Origin: Megasphaera coli
Lineage (GTDB): Bacteria; Bacillota; Negativicutes; Veillonellales; Megasphaeraceae
Direction: 5' to 3'
DNA: 64,000 bases
Assembly (NCBI RefSeq): GCF_900095855.1
Contig: NZ_FMIY01000002.1
Location: 673,322 to 737,321, forward strand
A model generated the notes under the pieces. That model was not told where the DNA came from. It saw only the letters and a program-made list of their open reading frames with translations, and did not search any database. The translations under genes were made by a program, and so were the position numbers. Within the stretch, counting starts at the first letter, position 1. Each line of letters opens with the position of its first letter. Of this stretch, positions 2,590 through 33,214 are shown piece by piece.

Positions 2590-2618
2590 AGATTACTCTA
2601 TCAAAAATATAAAGTCAA
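2590..2618 (-). promoter_or_regulatory. Promoter of the suf operon
   Basis: On the minus strand TTGACT (2613-2618) and TAATCT (2590-2595) are separated by 17 bases, in an AT-rich stretch just upstream of sufC. No operator was recognised. Confidence 0.65.
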
Positions 2619-2642
2619 CCTTTTTAGTGTATTTTAAGAATA

Positions 2643-2843
2643 CTACTCATTTGTATCGTCTTTTTTCGCGTATTTCGCCCGTAAATCGCGCCGTTTATTG
2701 CTGTGCAGCCAGACCTGCATGACCGCCGTGAAGACGGCAGCCCCAAAGAGACCGATAAGAAAGGGCGTCGGGCCGTCTATCCAGATGGCATAGACGAGGT
2801 AAAAAAAGACGACAACCCAAAGAAAGAAGCGCACCTTACGCAT
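2643..2843 (-). CDS. Small two-helix membrane protein coupled to the SCIFF maturase gene
   Basis: This 66-residue protein starts MRKVRFFLWVVVFFYLVYAI. It has two hydrophobic segments (about 5-20 and 27-45) joined by IDGPTP, then a strongly charged tail rich in Lys, Arg and Asp. I do not recognise a family. The start ATG at 2843 overlaps the last 8 bases of the radical SAM maturase gene, so translation is probably coupled. That placement makes a role in the same pathway possible, for example export or anchoring of the modified peptide, but this is inference only. The predicted topology is a hairpin with both ends in the cytoplasm by the positive-inside rule. Confidence 0.75.
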   Translation of the reverse strand: MRKVRFFLWVVVFFYLVYAIWIDGPTPFLIGLFGAAVFTAVMQVWLHSNKRRDLRAKYAKKDDTNE

Positions 2844-4245
2844 GGGCCGCCGCCCTTTCGCCCGCTTCGGCCCGCTTCACGGCAAGGACCGCCTGAATAT
2901 ACATGGCGCATTCAATGCGCTTCTTTTGGATACGGCAACCCAGGTCGTAGGGCTTATCGATGTTGCCGCCGTATTTAATGTTGTTGGCATGACAGCCTCC
3001 GCTGCAGAAGAACTTTGCCCAACAGCCGCAGCATTCGGGCTTGTTGAGGACGTGCATGTCCCGGAAGAGGCGCGGCAGAACCGTATCGGTAATACCGTCT
3101 TTCACATTGCCGATGCAGTACTCTTCCTGTCCGACAAACTGATGGCACGGGTAAATTTCACCGTTCGGCACGACGCACATATACTCGTGGCCGGCACCGC
3201 AGCCGCGCAAGCGCTTGGCAATACAGGGCCCTCTATATAAATCCATAATGAAATGATAGTAAATAATCGGATTGCCGGCAAGATACCGTTCCAAATAAAT
3301 ATCCGTCAGGTTGTCATATTCTTTGTAAATACGCTGTAAATCGTGCTCGTCAATGGCATAGGACAAGTCGTCGCCGACGACGGGCTCCATGGAAAGTCCC
3401 TGAAACCCGAGATCCGCCATATGAGCCACGTCGGCCGCAAAGTCCAGATTATACTTCGTATACGTACCGCGCACATAGTATTCTTCACCGTTGCGCCGCT
3501 CTACGGCACGGCGCAGATTCTTTACGATTTTGTCGTACGTCCCCCTGCCGCCGGCATCGGGCCGCATGCGATCGTGCACATCGCGGCGCCCGTCAAGGCT
3601 GAGGATGAGACCGATGTGATTATCCGTCAAATACTTTATCTTCTCGTCGTTCAAAAGCATGCCGTTCGTCGTGAGGGAAAGCTTAAAAACCTTGTCATGA
3701 AGCTTTTCCTGAGCACGAATATACGAAACGGTCTTTTTTACGACATCAAAATTCATGAGCGGTTCACCGCCGAAGAAATCCACCTCGCAGTGCTTACGCT
3801 TGCCGGCAGAACTCCTGATGAGCAAATCAATGGCCGCCCTGGCGACATCAAAGCTCATGAGTTCGCGCTTGTTCGTGTCGTAGTCTCCTTGAGAGGCAAA
3901 ACAATATCTGCAGCGCAGATTGCAATCGTGAGCAATGTTGAGACAGAGCGATTTCACGACGGGACGTTCGTCAGCGACGACTTGGAAGGACTCGCACATA
4001 GGCGCAAAGAGGAGTTCCCGTTCAATGAGTCCGTCCAATTCGTCCATGGCTTCGGTCAATTCCCGGCGGCCGTACTGTCCGGCAAGAACAGCGTACACGT
4101 CGTCTCTGTTGTCGCCTTTATATGTGTCGAGGACGTCGTACGTAACGGCGTCAATGACGTTAATAATACCGCTGTTCACATCCAACAGCATGCGGACTCC
4201 GTTTTGAATATACTTATGAATCATAGGTTTGATTTTCTTTGCCAT
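2836..4245 (-). CDS. scfB: Radical SAM SCIFF (ranthipeptide) maturase with SPASM domain
   Basis: This 469-residue protein carries the radical SAM motif CNLRCRYC (Cys 108, 112, 115), an FFGGEP segment and a Cys-rich SPASM region near the C-terminus (CGAGHEYMC, YPC, ECCGCWAKFFCSGGC). An N-terminal stretch of about 90 residues (IHKYIQNGVRMLLDVNSG) fits the precursor-binding domain of SCIFF maturases such as CteB. The family forms thioether links from cysteine sulfur to the side-chain carbon of an acceptor residue, using S-adenosylmethionine and auxiliary [4Fe-4S] clusters. The gene follows the six-cysteine precursor gene. I chose ATG at 4245, which has GGGGGA upstream; a TTG five codons earlier has no ribosome site. 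Confidence 0.93.
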   Translation of the reverse strand: MAKKIKPMIHKYIQNGVRMLLDVNSGIINVIDAVTYDVLDTYKGDNRDDVYAVLAGQYGRRELTEAMDELDGLIERELLFAPMCESFQVVADERPVVKSLCLNIAHDCNLRCRYCFASQGDYDTNKRELMSFDVARAAIDLLIRSSAGKRKHCEVDFFGGEPLMNFDVVKKTVSYIRAQEKLHDKVFKLSLTTNGMLLNDEKIKYLTDNHIGLILSLDGRRDVHDRMRPDAGGRGTYDKIVKNLRRAVERRNGEEYYVRGTYTKYNLDFAADVAHMADLGFQGLSMEPVVGDDLSYAIDEHDLQRIYKEYDNLTDIYLERYLAGNPIIYYHFIMDLYRGPCIAKRLRGCGAGHEYMCVVPNGEIYPCHQFVGQEEYCIGNVKDGITDTVLPRLFRDMHVLNKPECCGCWAKFFCSGGCHANNIKYGGNIDKPYDLGCRIQKKRIECAMYIQAVLAVKRAEAGERAAAHA

Positions 4246-4267
4246 GTTTCCCCCATGCAAAAAGAAT

Positions 4268-4293
4268 ACCCTTTACCGAAAGTGGTAAAGGGT
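4268..4293 (-). terminator. Hairpin between precursor and maturase genes, likely partial terminator
   Basis: Perfect 10-bp arms (4268-4277 and 4284-4293) enclose a 6-base loop. On the minus strand they are followed by ATTCTTTTT before the maturase start. The position suggests an attenuator that lets the short peptide gene be transcribed more than the enzyme gene. It may also stabilise the 3' end of the peptide message. Confidence 0.7.
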
Positions 4294-4309
4294 GTCCCCT
4301 CGCAACAAC

Positions 4310-4450
4310 TTATTTTGTGCAAACCTGATTGCCTACCGTACAAGAAGTCTTGCAGGCGGATTGACAGGACGTCTGGCATTCGCTGCAGCCCGCATGCTGA
4401 ACCGTCTTTTGGATAGATTCGGTGTTGATCGTAATAATGTGCTTAGCCAT
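4310..4450 (-). CDS. scfA: SCIFF six-cysteine ranthipeptide precursor
   Basis: This 46-residue peptide starts MAKHIITINTESIQKT. Its C-terminal half holds six cysteines at 22, 25, 29, 33, 37 and 44, with threonines at 27, 35, 38 and 45 as possible acceptors. The core CQSACKTSCTVGNQVC matches what I recall of the SCIFF family (six cysteines in forty-five residues), which is usually found next to its radical SAM maturase, as here. An AGGTG ribosome site and a strong promoter precede it. The N-terminal 20 residues would be the leader recognised by the maturase. The spacing between the first two cysteines is two residues; I recall three in clostridial members. The role of the mature product is not known to me. 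Confidence 0.93.
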   Translation of the reverse strand: MAKHIITINTESIQKTVQHAGCSECQTSCQSACKTSCTVGNQVCTK

Positions 4451-4482
4451 TTCGGTTCACCTCGCTGTTCAATATCAAAGGT

Positions 4483-4511
4483 ATTATAGCACAGAAAAAA
4501 GGATTCTACAA
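4483..4511 (-). promoter_or_regulatory. Promoter of the SCIFF locus
   Basis: A consensus TATAAT (4483-4488) and TTGTAG (4506-4511) lie 17 bases apart on the minus strand. They lie just after the stop of the upstream hypothetical gene and 33 bases before the peptide start. Confidence 0.75.
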
Positions 4512-4514
4512 TCA

Positions 4515-4910
4515 TTACAAAAGCCGCAAGCCTTTAAACTGAAAATCCCTGCTCATGGAGATGACAACAGCGTAATCGTCGAAGATTTCATTCGTAGCGA
4601 AAAAAACGTCGAAATCGCCGTCATACGTAATATGGACGGAACTGATGCGTTCAAGGTAGGCGCGAATCTGCTCGGGCGTCACTTCCGGATCGCCGTCATT
4701 GCGCCAGCGCTCGTTTTTAAACTTCGCAATGAGGGGAGAGTGTGTCAAGACACGCATACGGTGAGCTAAAACCCAATCCCAAACCTTTTCGCCGTAGGCC
4801 TGCGCTTCTTCGTCCCGCCCTTCGGGCAATCCTTCGAGGACGACGAGGACAGGCTTGCCTTCCACTATAATCTCATCAATATAGTTGCCTTTGACATAGC
4901 GTAAATTCAT
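4515..4910 (-). CDS. Conserved hypothetical protein, possibly DUF2262-like
   Basis: This 131-residue soluble acidic protein starts MNLRYVKGNYIDEIIVEGKP. There is no signal peptide or membrane segment. The C-terminal part (ITYDGDFDVFFATNEIFDDYAVVISMS) has the pattern of an alternating beta sheet and loosely recalls DUF2262 proteins; I am not certain of that match. It has its own ribosome site (GGCGGAGG, 10 bases from the ATG) and promoter. It lies immediately upstream of the SCIFF promoter with no room for a strong terminator, so read-through into the SCIFF locus is possible. No function can be assigned. Confidence 0.7.
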   Translation of the reverse strand: MNLRYVKGNYIDEIIVEGKPVLVVLEGLPEGRDEEAQAYGEKVWDWVLAHRMRVLTHSPLIAKFKNERWRNDGDPEVTPEQIRAYLERISSVHITYDGDFDVFFATNEIFDDYAVVISMSRDFQFKGLRLL

Positions 4911-8891: not shown

Positions 8892-8993
8892 AAAAAACAC
8901 CGACCCTATCCGGAATCGTTGCCCAGACGGTCGGCGCCAAAACTGATTATGCTCCCCCGTGGTTCTTCCACTTCCGTCAGTTACATAACCTGC
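8892..8993 (-). ncRNA. ZTP (pfl) riboswitch with intrinsic terminator upstream of fhs
   Basis: Read on the minus strand, an 8-bp stem P1 (8983-8990 with 8945-8952) closes a domain containing the hairpin GTGG-AAGA-ACCAC (8959-8971) and the stretch CGGGGGAGCA. A second stem (8929-8934 with 8901-8906) encloses CTGGGCAACG and CCGGATAGGG and is followed by six T residues (8892-8897). This two-domain layout, with the 3' stem doubling as terminator and fhs downstream, fits the pfl/ZTP class. Family assignment is from memory of the consensus. Confidence 0.87.
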
Positions 8994-8998
8994 ATTGT

Positions 8999-9132: not shown

Positions 9133-10494
9133 CTATTTACGCACTTCGCCTTTGAGAGCTTCCAATTCCTGCCGGAGCTGATTGATAAGAGCATCCTGTG
9201 CGTCGTCACGCGCCTTGAGCGCGTTGTTTTCAGCAGTCAGGTCCTGTACCTGTGCCATGAGGCGCGAACGGGCAGTACCGCCGTTTGCACCGGAGCCGAG
9301 TTTGAGGGAAATGCCGGCATTTACCATACCGCTGCCGTTGCCCATGGAGGCGCCCAAGCTGATCATGGTCACTTCGTTGGGGCGGTAGAAAGCACCGAGT
9401 GCTACGGCGTTGGCATCGCGGTAATTGCCCATACCTGCGGCAAAATCCCACTTGTAAGCCGGATCGTAGTCGAGGGGATGGAGGGCGGCCAAGGCGGCCG
9501 CACCGGCACCGACTTTGTTGATCTTGTTGTCCAATTGATTGACACGGCCCGTTACGCCGTCAATACGCGTATTCAAACTGCCGATCTGCGCATCAACGCT
9601 GCTTGCGTGAGTATTCAAGGCGGCAACACGTGTATCAAGTGTTCCTACACGGCCGTCAAGAACGCCGACTGTTCCTCCCAAAGCATCTACCTTATTATCT
9701 ACCGCAGTTACTCTATTATCTACTATATTCACTTTATTATCCACTGCCGTTACCTTGCCGTCCAATGCAGTTACCTTACCGGCCACTCCGTCCACTTTAC
9801 TGCCTACCGTTTTCAGCTGTTTTTCCGTTGCCGCACGGCCGGTCATCCCGAAGTCGGCCGAATCAACGTCAATATCTTTCAGGCCCGTAATGGTGGCTCC
9901 GCCTGCTTTACCGTCAATGACAACGTCGCCGGCAGTGATTTTGTTGCCGTGAATGGTCGTTTCCGTTGCGGCCTCTACGCCGTGAGCACCGCTGCGAAAT
10001 ACGGTTGCGTCCTTTTGTACTTTTACATAGTTGAATTCAGCTCCCGAATTTCCGCTGTCGACAGACATTTTCACGCCGTTTGTTTTGTCGACTGAAACGG
10101 CCGTATCACCGACATTACCAGTCAAGCCGCTTTTATCGAATTTCAAGCTGCTGTTCGTATCGGGATTTACTTTTAGAATTTCCGTCTGTACTGTGCCGCC
10201 GTCGATCTCAGTATAATGTTCGGTAGCGTATTGGGCATTGCTGACACGAATACCGCCGTCCGTAACGGTAGTCGTTTTGCCGCTATCTCTACCTATTCCG
10301 TCTGTTCCGCTTACAACCAAACCGTTCTTGTCAAAGTCCATATTCCGTGATGGCTGAAACGTACCGCCTTGCCCTGTAACGGAAAGACCGTTGCCGGTTA
10401 CATCGGCAGCTCCTACAGTCGATACGGCACTGAACCCGGCCGTACAAGCGCAGACCGTCAAGGCTGCAAGCACTATTTTCGAATATTTCTTCAC
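9133..10494 (-). CDS. Trimeric autotransporter (YadA-like) with C-terminal coiled-coil tail
   Basis: This 453-residue surface protein has a signal peptide at 1-30 ending near STVGAA and a beta-rich passenger to about 215. A YadA stalk motif GRAATEKQL at 220-228 follows. Residues 234-324 form an unbroken series of thirteen heptads (VTAVDNK, VNIVDNR, VGTLDTR and the like). The YadA anchor (about 330-401, with LHPLDYDP and ISLKLGSG) would form the outer-membrane barrel. Unlike classical YadA, which ends at the last barrel strand, about 50 more residues form a second coiled coil (AQVQDLTAENNALK, LINQLRQELEALKGEV), presumably in the periplasm. Start is GTG with AGGAGG 8 bases upstream. Likely an adhesin. 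Confidence 0.92.
   Translation of the reverse strand: MKKYSKIVLAALTVCACTAGFSAVSTVGAADVTGNGLSVTGQGGTFQPSRNMDFDKNGLVVSGTDGIGRDSGKTTTVTDGGIRVSNAQYATEHYTEIDGGTVQTEILKVNPDTNSSLKFDKSGLTGNVGDTAVSVDKTNGVKMSVDSGNSGAEFNYVKVQKDATVFRSGAHGVEAATETTIHGNKITAGDVVIDGKAGGATITGLKDIDVDSADFGMTGRAATEKQLKTVGSKVDGVAGKVTALDGKVTAVDNKVNIVDNRVTAVDNKVDALGGTVGVLDGRVGTLDTRVAALNTHASSVDAQIGSLNTRIDGVTGRVNQLDNKINKVGAGAAALAALHPLDYDPAYKWDFAAGMGNYRDANAVALGAFYRPNEVTMISLGASMGNGSGMVNAGISLKLGSGANGGTARSRLMAQVQDLTAENNALKARDDAQDALINQLRQELEALKGEVRK
9523..9795 (-). repeat. 21-base repeats encoding thirteen stalk heptads
   Basis: This coding stretch is built of thirteen consecutive 7-codon units with Val or Ile at position 1 and mostly Leu or Val at position 4. 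Such runs can grow or shrink by slippage or recombination, changing stalk length. Confidence 0.85.
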
Positions 10495-31381: not shown

Positions 31382-32117
31382 TCCGTTTGGCACCGACGTA
31401 GCGGGAACGCCAATATTCGCTGTTCAGGCTGTCCACGTGAATGCCGCTGCTCGACGTGGCACTGATGAACTGGTTATTGCCGACATAAATCCCCGTATGC
31501 GATATGCCCGATTCATAGGTCGTAAAAAAGACCAGATCGCCGGGAATGAGATCCCGCTTGGAGACGGACGCTCCCAGACGGTACTGCTCGTCGGCCATGC
31601 GCGGCAAAGTAACGCCGCTGTGGGCGAAGACGTACCTGGTAAAACCCGAGCAGTCAAAACCGCTCGGCGTGTTGCCGCCGAATACATAGGGAACGCCAAG
31701 GTACTGATAAGCCTGCGAAACGACCTTATTACCGAAGACGTTGTGCTTGATATCGTCTTTGCCGGCCTTGCCTTTGCCGTAATCCTGGATAGTAACGGCT
31801 TTTTTCTTGTTTTTTCCGCCGGAAACCGCCTTTTTCTCCGCTTTCGGCATAGTCTTTCCGGTCAAAAGTTTATAGGTCTTCGCATCAACGTTACCGCTGA
31901 TATCAAGGCCCTTGTCGGCCTGAAAACGTCCGACGGCGCGGCTTGTCTCGCTGCCGTAAATGCCGTCGGCGGAAATTTTATAGCCCCGCTTGACGAGCTG
32001 CTTTTGAATCAACAGCACGTCCGCTCCCTGCGAACCGACGGAATAGGCACCGACGGGTAAAACCGCAAGTGCGGCAACGGCGCATGCAATAACGGTTTTA
32101 GAAATCGCTCTCCACAT
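31371..32117 (-). CDS. Secreted NlpC/P60 peptidoglycan endopeptidase with a PG-binding domain
   Basis: This 248-residue protein has a signal peptide (MWRAISKTVIACAVAALAVL, cut near GAYS). A PG_binding_1 domain follows at about 28-92 (VLLIQKQLVKRGYKISADGIYG), then a Lys-rich linker and a C-terminal NlpC/P60 cysteine peptidase. The catalytic pair is visible: Cys in GFDCSGFTRYVF and His in SHTGIYVGNNQF. Such enzymes cut the D-Glu to diamino acid bond in stem peptides during wall growth. A c-di-AMP riboswitch directly upstream fits the known link of this messenger with wall hydrolases and turgor. Confidence 0.95.
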   Translation of the reverse strand: MWRAISKTVIACAVAALAVLPVGAYSVGSQGADVLLIQKQLVKRGYKISADGIYGSETSRAVGRFQADKGLDISGNVDAKTYKLLTGKTMPKAEKKAVSGGKNKKKAVTIQDYGKGKAGKDDIKHNVFGNKVVSQAYQYLGVPYVFGGNTPSGFDCSGFTRYVFAHSGVTLPRMADEQYRLGASVSKRDLIPGDLVFFTTYESGISHTGIYVGNNQFISATSSSGIHVDSLNSEYWRSRYVGAKRIKK

Positions 32118-32128
32118 AAAAACTCCTC

Positions 32129-32238
32129 TCCGCCTCCGAGGTTAACTGACGGGTTAGGCTTGAAGGCAGCCCGCCGCGGAGCGGCTTCACCCCAAAAACA
32201 TGGTTCCCCCGTACCTGTCAGACAGGATTCGGCACTAC
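32129..32238 (-). ncRNA. c-di-AMP riboswitch (ydaO-yuaA class)
   Basis: Read on the minus strand it shows the conserved blocks in order: GCCGAATCCTG, ACAGGTACGGGGGAACC, TTGGGGTGAAG, a GC-rich variable hairpin, CTTCAAGCCTAACCCGTCAG and TTAACCTCGGAGGCGG. These match the ydaO consensus as I recall it. The class usually turns the gene off when c-di-AMP binds and is typically found before wall hydrolase and ion transport genes. It ends 11 bases before the ATG. There is no room for a classic terminator, so control of translation or an overlapping structure is possible. Confidence 0.9.
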
Positions 32239-32242
32239 ATCT

Positions 32243-33214
32243 TTACCATGGAGCATCGTCGTCACGATGATGTCCCAGTTCGGCCTTTATCCAATATAAG
32301 GGCCGTCCCTTTACTTCTTCAAATATTCTGCCTATATATTCTCCGATAATACCGAGAAATGTAAGCTGCAGGCCGCCGACAAGGCAAACGACAATCATTG
32401 TTGTCGTCCAGCCCGGCGTAGTGCGGCCGGTCAAATCACAATACAGAACGTGAACAATCATGAGAATACTGAGGAGTCCGCTCAGTAAACCCGTATAAAA
32501 GGATATGCGCAAGGGCACTTTGGAATAGGCCATAATGCCGTCCAAGGCAAAACTCAGCATCTTGTGCAGGGAAAACTTCGATTCCCCCGCATAACGCTTG
32601 GGCGCTACGAATTCGACGGTCGTCTGCCTGTAGCCTATATCGGCGATAAGACCGCGAATAAACCGGTCATGTTCGCGAAAGAGCTTGAACGTCTTGAGGA
32701 CGCGCTTGTCAAGAAGGCGAAAATCGGAGCCGCCCGGCCTGATATGGACAGGTGAGATGACGTTCAAAACAGTATAATACAATTTTGACGTAAGCCGTTT
32801 AAAAACCCCCGCATCATCCGTCGCCAGCCGAATGGTCTGCACGACGTCATAGCCTTCGCGCCACCGCTGCAGAAGATCGGGAATCATTTCCGGCGGATGC
32901 TGCAGGTCACCGTCCATCGTAATAACGGCATCGCCTGCGGCGTGGTCCATACCGCACGTAAGGGCCGACTGATGGCCGAAGTTCCTCGCGAAAATGAGGG
33001 CGCGGACACGCTCGTCGCGCTGTGTCAACCTGCTGAGAACGAGAGGCGTGGCATCTCGCGATCCGTCATCGACAAAAATGATTTCATAATCATAGTCGAG
33101 ATCCGCCATGGCCGTCGTCACTTCTTCATAAAACTTTTCAATATTCAAATGCTCGTTATACACGGGTGCAACGATAGAGACCGTCTTTTTCGCCTGATTT
33201 TCTAAAAAGGTCAT
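32243..33214 (-). CDS. GT2 glycosyltransferase of the polyprenyl-phosphate (GtrB/DPM1) type
   Basis: This 323-residue protein has a cytosolic GT-A domain with SIVAPVYNE, the nucleotide-sugar motif VDDGSRD, the metal motif DGDLQHPPE and FRLLDKRV. Two C-terminal membrane helices follow (about 235-255 and 268-290). The family moves a sugar from a nucleotide donor to undecaprenyl phosphate for surface glycan building; the sugar is unknown. The ATG at 33214 lies only 5 bases after the TATAAT box of a consensus promoter and has no ribosome site, so the message may be leaderless. Its stop codon sits about 5 bases before the c-di-AMP riboswitch. Confidence 0.93.
   Translation of the reverse strand: MTFLENQAKKTVSIVAPVYNEHLNIEKFYEEVTTAMADLDYDYEIIFVDDGSRDATPLVLSRLTQRDERVRALIFARNFGHQSALTCGMDHAAGDAVITMDGDLQHPPEMIPDLLQRWREGYDVVQTIRLATDDAGVFKRLTSKLYYTVLNVISPVHIRPGGSDFRLLDKRVLKTFKLFREHDRFIRGLIADIGYRQTTVEFVAPKRYAGESKFSLHKMLSFALDGIMAYSKVPLRISFYTGLLSGLLSILMIVHVLYCDLTGRTTPGWTTTMIVVCLVGGLQLTFLGIIGEYIGRIFEEVKGRPLYWIKAELGHHRDDDAPW
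32293..32322 (-). promoter_or_regulatory. Candidate internal promoter for the c-di-AMP riboswitch
   Basis: TTGAAG (32317-32322) and TATATT (32293-32298) lie with an 18-base spacer within the 3' part of the glycosyltransferase gene. It would give a transcript starting some 45 bases before the riboswitch. Confidence 0.35.

Follow-up and report, generated by a model that had tools for sequence, protein, structure and literature searches.

The SCIFF locus and its genes

The window, the whole stretch of 64,000 nt that was analysed, contains a SCIFF locus of three genes, which are all located on the minus strand in the order precursor, maturase and a gene for a 66-aa protein. The SCIFF ranthipeptide precursor (ScfA, 46 aa) is encoded at 4310–4450 (minus strand) and the radical SAM/SPASM maturase (ScfB, 469 aa counted from the ATG) at 2836–4245 (minus strand), with 64 bases between the precursor stop and the maturase ATG. 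The third gene (2643–2843, minus strand), for a small, putative inner-membrane protein, shares exactly 8 bases with the maturase gene (2836–2843). Two non-coding elements accompany these genes, namely a conserved promoter motif before the precursor gene (4483–4511, minus strand) and a terminator-like hairpin with a T-rich tail in the gap between precursor and maturase (4258–4293, minus strand). An earlier note had described a complete SCIFF locus in a Negativicute, with a 46-residue precursor carrying cysteines at positions 22, 25, 29, 33, 37 and 44, a radical SAM/SPASM maturase and a 66-residue gene with the 8-base overlap. All of this was borne out by the coordinates, the cysteine positions and the matches of precursor and maturase above the curated cut-offs. 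The locus is thus a standard SCIFF thioether-peptide locus of Negativicutes and belongs to an already known kind.

Two riboswitches were found elsewhere in the window, both on the minus strand: a ZMP/ZTP riboswitch at 8914–8994 (RF01750, 62.5 bits) before a gene at 8900–7170 that looks like a formate-tetrahydrofolate ligase, and a c-di-AMP riboswitch at 32116–32244 (RF00379, 83.4 bits).

Precursor and maturase

The precursor exceeds the cut-offs of both TIGR03973 (78.1 bits, cut-off 50; ungapped) and PF13165 (80.3 bits, cut-off 27). Its six cysteines are spaced 2-3-3-3-6, an arrangement present in 121 of 129 loci from Negativicutes and clostridia, the first spacing being left free in the search of the clostridial loci; the remaining eight have the same six-cysteine core and one extra cysteine. 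The spacing of two residues between the first cysteines had been taken as a difference from clostridia. This remark was mistaken, since 2-3-3-3-6 is common to both groups and is the normal form. Cys33, Thr35 and Thr38 correspond to Cys32, Thr34 and Thr37 of CteA, in which the thioether links Cys32 to Thr34 or Thr37 (PMC8326336, PMC8172795), and the residues for a ranthipeptide-type thioether are therefore predicted to be in place. A match of the precursor to epoxyqueuosine reductase in the PDB was discarded as a chance match.

The maturase scores 587 bits against TIGR03974 (cut-off 425). Among solved structures, CteB of Clostridium thermocellum is the closest relative (5WGG, E 2.6e-149); the CxxxCxxC radical SAM motif and the SPASM/auxiliary-cluster-type cysteines align with it. 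The nearest named relatives are from Anaeroglobus geminatus (82%) and Megasphaera micronuciformis (81%). We infer Cys-Thr crosslink chemistry; a CteB-type radical SAM/SPASM maturase would make at least one Cys-Thr thioether in the precursor core.

Comparison with known systems and distribution

The best comparison is CteA/CteB (thermocellin) of C. thermocellum (structures 5WGG/5WHY), where the precursor belongs to the same family with the same cysteine spacing and acceptor threonines, and CteB is of the same family as the maturase of the window with the same cluster cysteines. Unlike CteA/CteB, the Megasphaeraceae locus has a membrane-protein gene that overlaps the maturase gene. The same pair of SCIFF precursor and maturase is known from Caldanaerobacter subterraneus, where Tte1186a and Tte1186 yield a Cys-Thr thioether, and the consulted parts of the two sources mention no gene for a small hairpin protein (PMC8326336, PMC8172795). 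Freyrasin (PapA/PapB, Paenibacillus polymyxa) is a ranthipeptide with a related maturase, characterised by Cys-x3-Asp motifs and six crosslinks (PMC8172795). Unlike the locus of the window it is not a SCIFF equivalog, and the match to NF047865 is below the cut-off.

SCIFF with membrane-protein neighbours is nothing new as such, because part of the clostridial SCIFF loci adjoin YajC-like, TIGR04086 and SecD genes. In the arrangement YajC - TIGR04086 - SCIFF - maturase - SecD, SCIFF likewise lies beside small membrane-protein genes; YajC and TIGR04086, however, are located upstream and match other models, unlike the 66-aa gene. By a simple motif test YajC-like genes were found in 10 and SecD-like genes in 15 of 70 short clostridial loci, whereas neither was found at 61 Negativicutes loci by the same test. 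Of two clostridial fragments tested with TIGR04086, one had a SCIFF neighbour above the cut-off (36.6 vs 30).

SCIFF peptides are among the most widespread RiPPs. Within the class Negativicutes SCIFF is nearly universal: it exceeds the cut-off in 231 of 250 genomes and is found at E 0.001 in 192 of the 196 genomes of good quality. In the order Veillonellales precursor and maturase are each above their cut-offs in 58 of 61 genomes. The setting in a Negativicute, which the earlier note had considered less familiar, is consequently an ordinary one, and rarity of SCIFF in this class is ruled out by the 231 genomes (see also PMC13289728). The operon of the window appears normal and would have been inherited vertically.

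Promoter and upstream gene

The putative promoter of the precursor gene has the form TTGTAGAA-N10-TGTGCTATAAT, with a −35 element TTGTAG, a spacer of 17 bases and an extended −10 element TATAAT. Its outer edge coincides with position 4511, where the span given in the earlier note ends. The motif TTGTAGAA-N10-TRTGNTANAAT stands before the precursor gene at the same place and with the same spacing in all 16 Megasphaeraceae loci, in four of them with one change. From this conservation we infer that the element functions as a promoter, and a vegetative promoter would then drive the precursor gene. Even with one mismatch allowed, the motif has a single site in the whole genome of the window, which speaks against its being the signature of a regulon.

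Directly upstream of SCIFF lies a gene for a 131-aa protein (4515–4910, minus strand) whose similarity to DUF2262 is weak and sub-threshold. It occupies this position in 16/16 Megasphaeraceae loci; in one Megasphaera genome it is split over two frames, by a frameshift or a sequencing error. Unlinked homologues exist in one other family. The gene is a conserved neighbour and probably forms a transcription unit separate from SCIFF.

The hairpin between precursor and maturase

The stem of the hairpin, ACCCTTTACC-ACTTTC-GGTAAAGGGT, spans 4293–4268 on the minus strand and is followed by a T-rich tail to 4258. By one fixed rule a hairpin was detected at this place in all 16 Megasphaeraceae loci, 17 of 23 other Veillonellales loci, 9 of 10 other Negativicutes loci and 28 of 48 clostridial loci, as compared with about 1.4 expected over all groups from dinucleotide shuffles, a weak null for terminators. 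Co-directional gene gaps of the same Negativicutes loci served as a second control: a hairpin occurs in 42 of 49 SCIFF-maturase gaps vs 13 of 68 control gaps, the latter limited to fetched loci and greedy ORF calls, and if only short gaps are considered in 30 of 32 vs 2 of 25. Sub-groups of the family have the hairpin at the same place but with wholly different sequences.

Only about 22 bases separate the hairpin from the maturase ATG in the window. This distance is too short for a promoter behind the hairpin and therefore suggests leaky termination: the terminator-like structure would let only part of the transcription through, and the precursor would be produced in excess of the maturase. 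Alternatively, the hairpin could be an ordinary full terminator or a structure stabilising the 3' end of the transcript, with the maturase transcribed from a promoter of its own. Stem and tail are indeed strong (about −16 kcal/mol), and gaps of 200–350 bases in some other families offer room for a promoter. In the window, however, a maturase promoter would have to sit inside or before the hairpin, and we regard this explanation as rather unlikely. The hairpin is accordingly best read as a candidate leaky terminator favouring precursor over enzyme. A literature search of incomplete coverage turned up no description of a terminator in SCIFF operons, which is weak evidence of novelty.

The small membrane protein in Megasphaeraceae

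The 66-aa protein is predicted to form a hairpin of two helices with a positive N-terminus and a positive C-terminal tail (topology read by eye). It matched no family model above the cut-off and had no match to TIGR04086; relationship to TIGR04086 or YajC was set aside after model and motif tests. The existence of homologues together with the low dN/dS of the closest pairs (about 0.09–0.22) argues that this is a real coding gene under purifying selection. A homologue is located directly behind the maturase in 16/16 Megasphaeraceae SCIFF loci, comprising the window and 15 other genomes. In most of them the 8-base overlap with the maturase gene recurs, and in a few the start is placed as far as about 24 bases downstream of the maturase stop; this is consistent with translational coupling: the 66-residue gene would be translated by coupling to the maturase stop.

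Probable relatives outside Megasphaeraceae

In other Negativicutes 45 SCIFF loci were read, including a few that stop shortly after the maturase, and the small gene is absent from this position at every one of them. The maturase is followed by hypF in the Veillonella-type and many other Negativicutes loci, and elsewhere by a gene for a secreted protein or by unrelated genes. Thus the claim that a coupled membrane gene co-occurs with SCIFF holds inside Megasphaeraceae (16/16) and fails outside (0/45), so that the small protein does not stand beside most SCIFF loci of the class. Co-transcription of the small gene with SCIFF is accordingly peculiar to Megasphaeraceae.

When searched with a profile of the Megasphaeraceae proteins, the three remaining families of the order nevertheless yield small two-helix proteins (E 1e-7 to 1e-3). 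In the reciprocal search with a profile of these relatives, the SCIFF-linked gene ranks first in 14 of 16 Megasphaeraceae genomes. Comparison of the two profiles gave a probability of 98%, a value that is not independent, the second set having been chosen through the Megasphaeraceae profile. The small protein is probably homologous across Veillonellales; the similarity concerns short membrane helices found by profile and could in part reflect convergence. The relatives have other neighbours, identified by visual inspection of the sequences: in Veillonella-type genomes xth, in one family sucD or a PAP2-like gene and a WYL-type regulator, and in another a downstream ahpC. In genome G022 (99% complete) a relative is present while neither SCIFF nor maturase was detected, and in one genus SCIFF is present and no relative of the small protein was detected.

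Possible roles of the small protein

Because its relatives occur elsewhere beside other genes and in G022 without SCIFF, the small protein most likely serves a function independent of SCIFF and joined the SCIFF operon in one family. An inner-membrane hairpin protein spread over the order would have come to lie in the operon in the ancestor of Megasphaeraceae, where it would serve a purpose of its own rather than act as an obligatory SCIFF exporter.

A dedicated SCIFF partner, with a role in exporting, anchoring or receiving the modified peptide or in tethering the maturase to the membrane, would agree with the adjacency at all 16 loci, the 8-base overlap in many of them and the apparent end of the operon behind the small gene in several. 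The small gene is also kept in two genera whose downstream genes differ: it stays at SCIFF in genus g2, where it is followed by a terminator-like sequence and not by the suf genes seen in genus g1. No other observation ties the small gene to SCIFF as strongly as this retention, which is what would be expected of a real partner. The membrane-protein genes beside some clostridial SCIFF (YajC, TIGR04086, SecD) point in the same direction. But the gene is lacking at the 45 other Negativicutes loci, its probable relatives are unlinked, have fixed neighbours of other kinds and occur without SCIFF in G022, only five residues of the protein are invariant, and the operon contains no ATPase or peptidase. 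Such a partner role is hence doubtful, and export or anchoring of the SCIFF product by the small protein is a conjecture that more probably fails than holds.

A reading in which the small gene is part of the downstream suf group for iron-sulfur assembly and simply borders SCIFF, as the sufC-like genes following on the same strand in g1 loci might suggest, is highly improbable, since genus g2 keeps it at SCIFF with suf not adjacent, most g1 loci have a conserved promoter-like block TTGACTTT ahead of suf, and several have terminator-like sequences there. In the window the block before sufC (AGGTTGACTTT ... GAGTAATCT; 2590–2642, minus strand), conserved in most g1 loci, could act as a regulated promoter of suf.

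Function and significance

In clostridia, sporulation genes and the agr locus were affected when SCIFF was disrupted, and for solventogenic species a role in quorum sensing has been proposed (Chen et al. 2020, as cited in PMC8102284). For Negativicutes a core physiological role would fit better than that of a bacteriocin, because SCIFF is near-universal, single-copy and almost unchanged in sequence throughout the class.

A further gene of the window (9133–10494, minus strand) encodes a 453-aa protein with a signal peptide and a YadA-like C-terminus, by eye a trimeric autotransporter; this putative assignment is in keeping with an outer membrane.

Taken as a whole, the locus is, with fairly good confidence, a normal and vertically inherited SCIFF operon composed of a promoter, a presumably leaky hairpin, a CteB-type enzyme and a small protein that most likely has its own function. 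The recurrent hairpin is the feature deserving follow-up, as it offers a testable rule for the balance between precursor and maturase. As a candidate partner of SCIFF, the small membrane gene is restricted to one lineage; should this role be true, the recruited hairpin protein would be the first dedicated membrane partner in a diderm SCIFF system.
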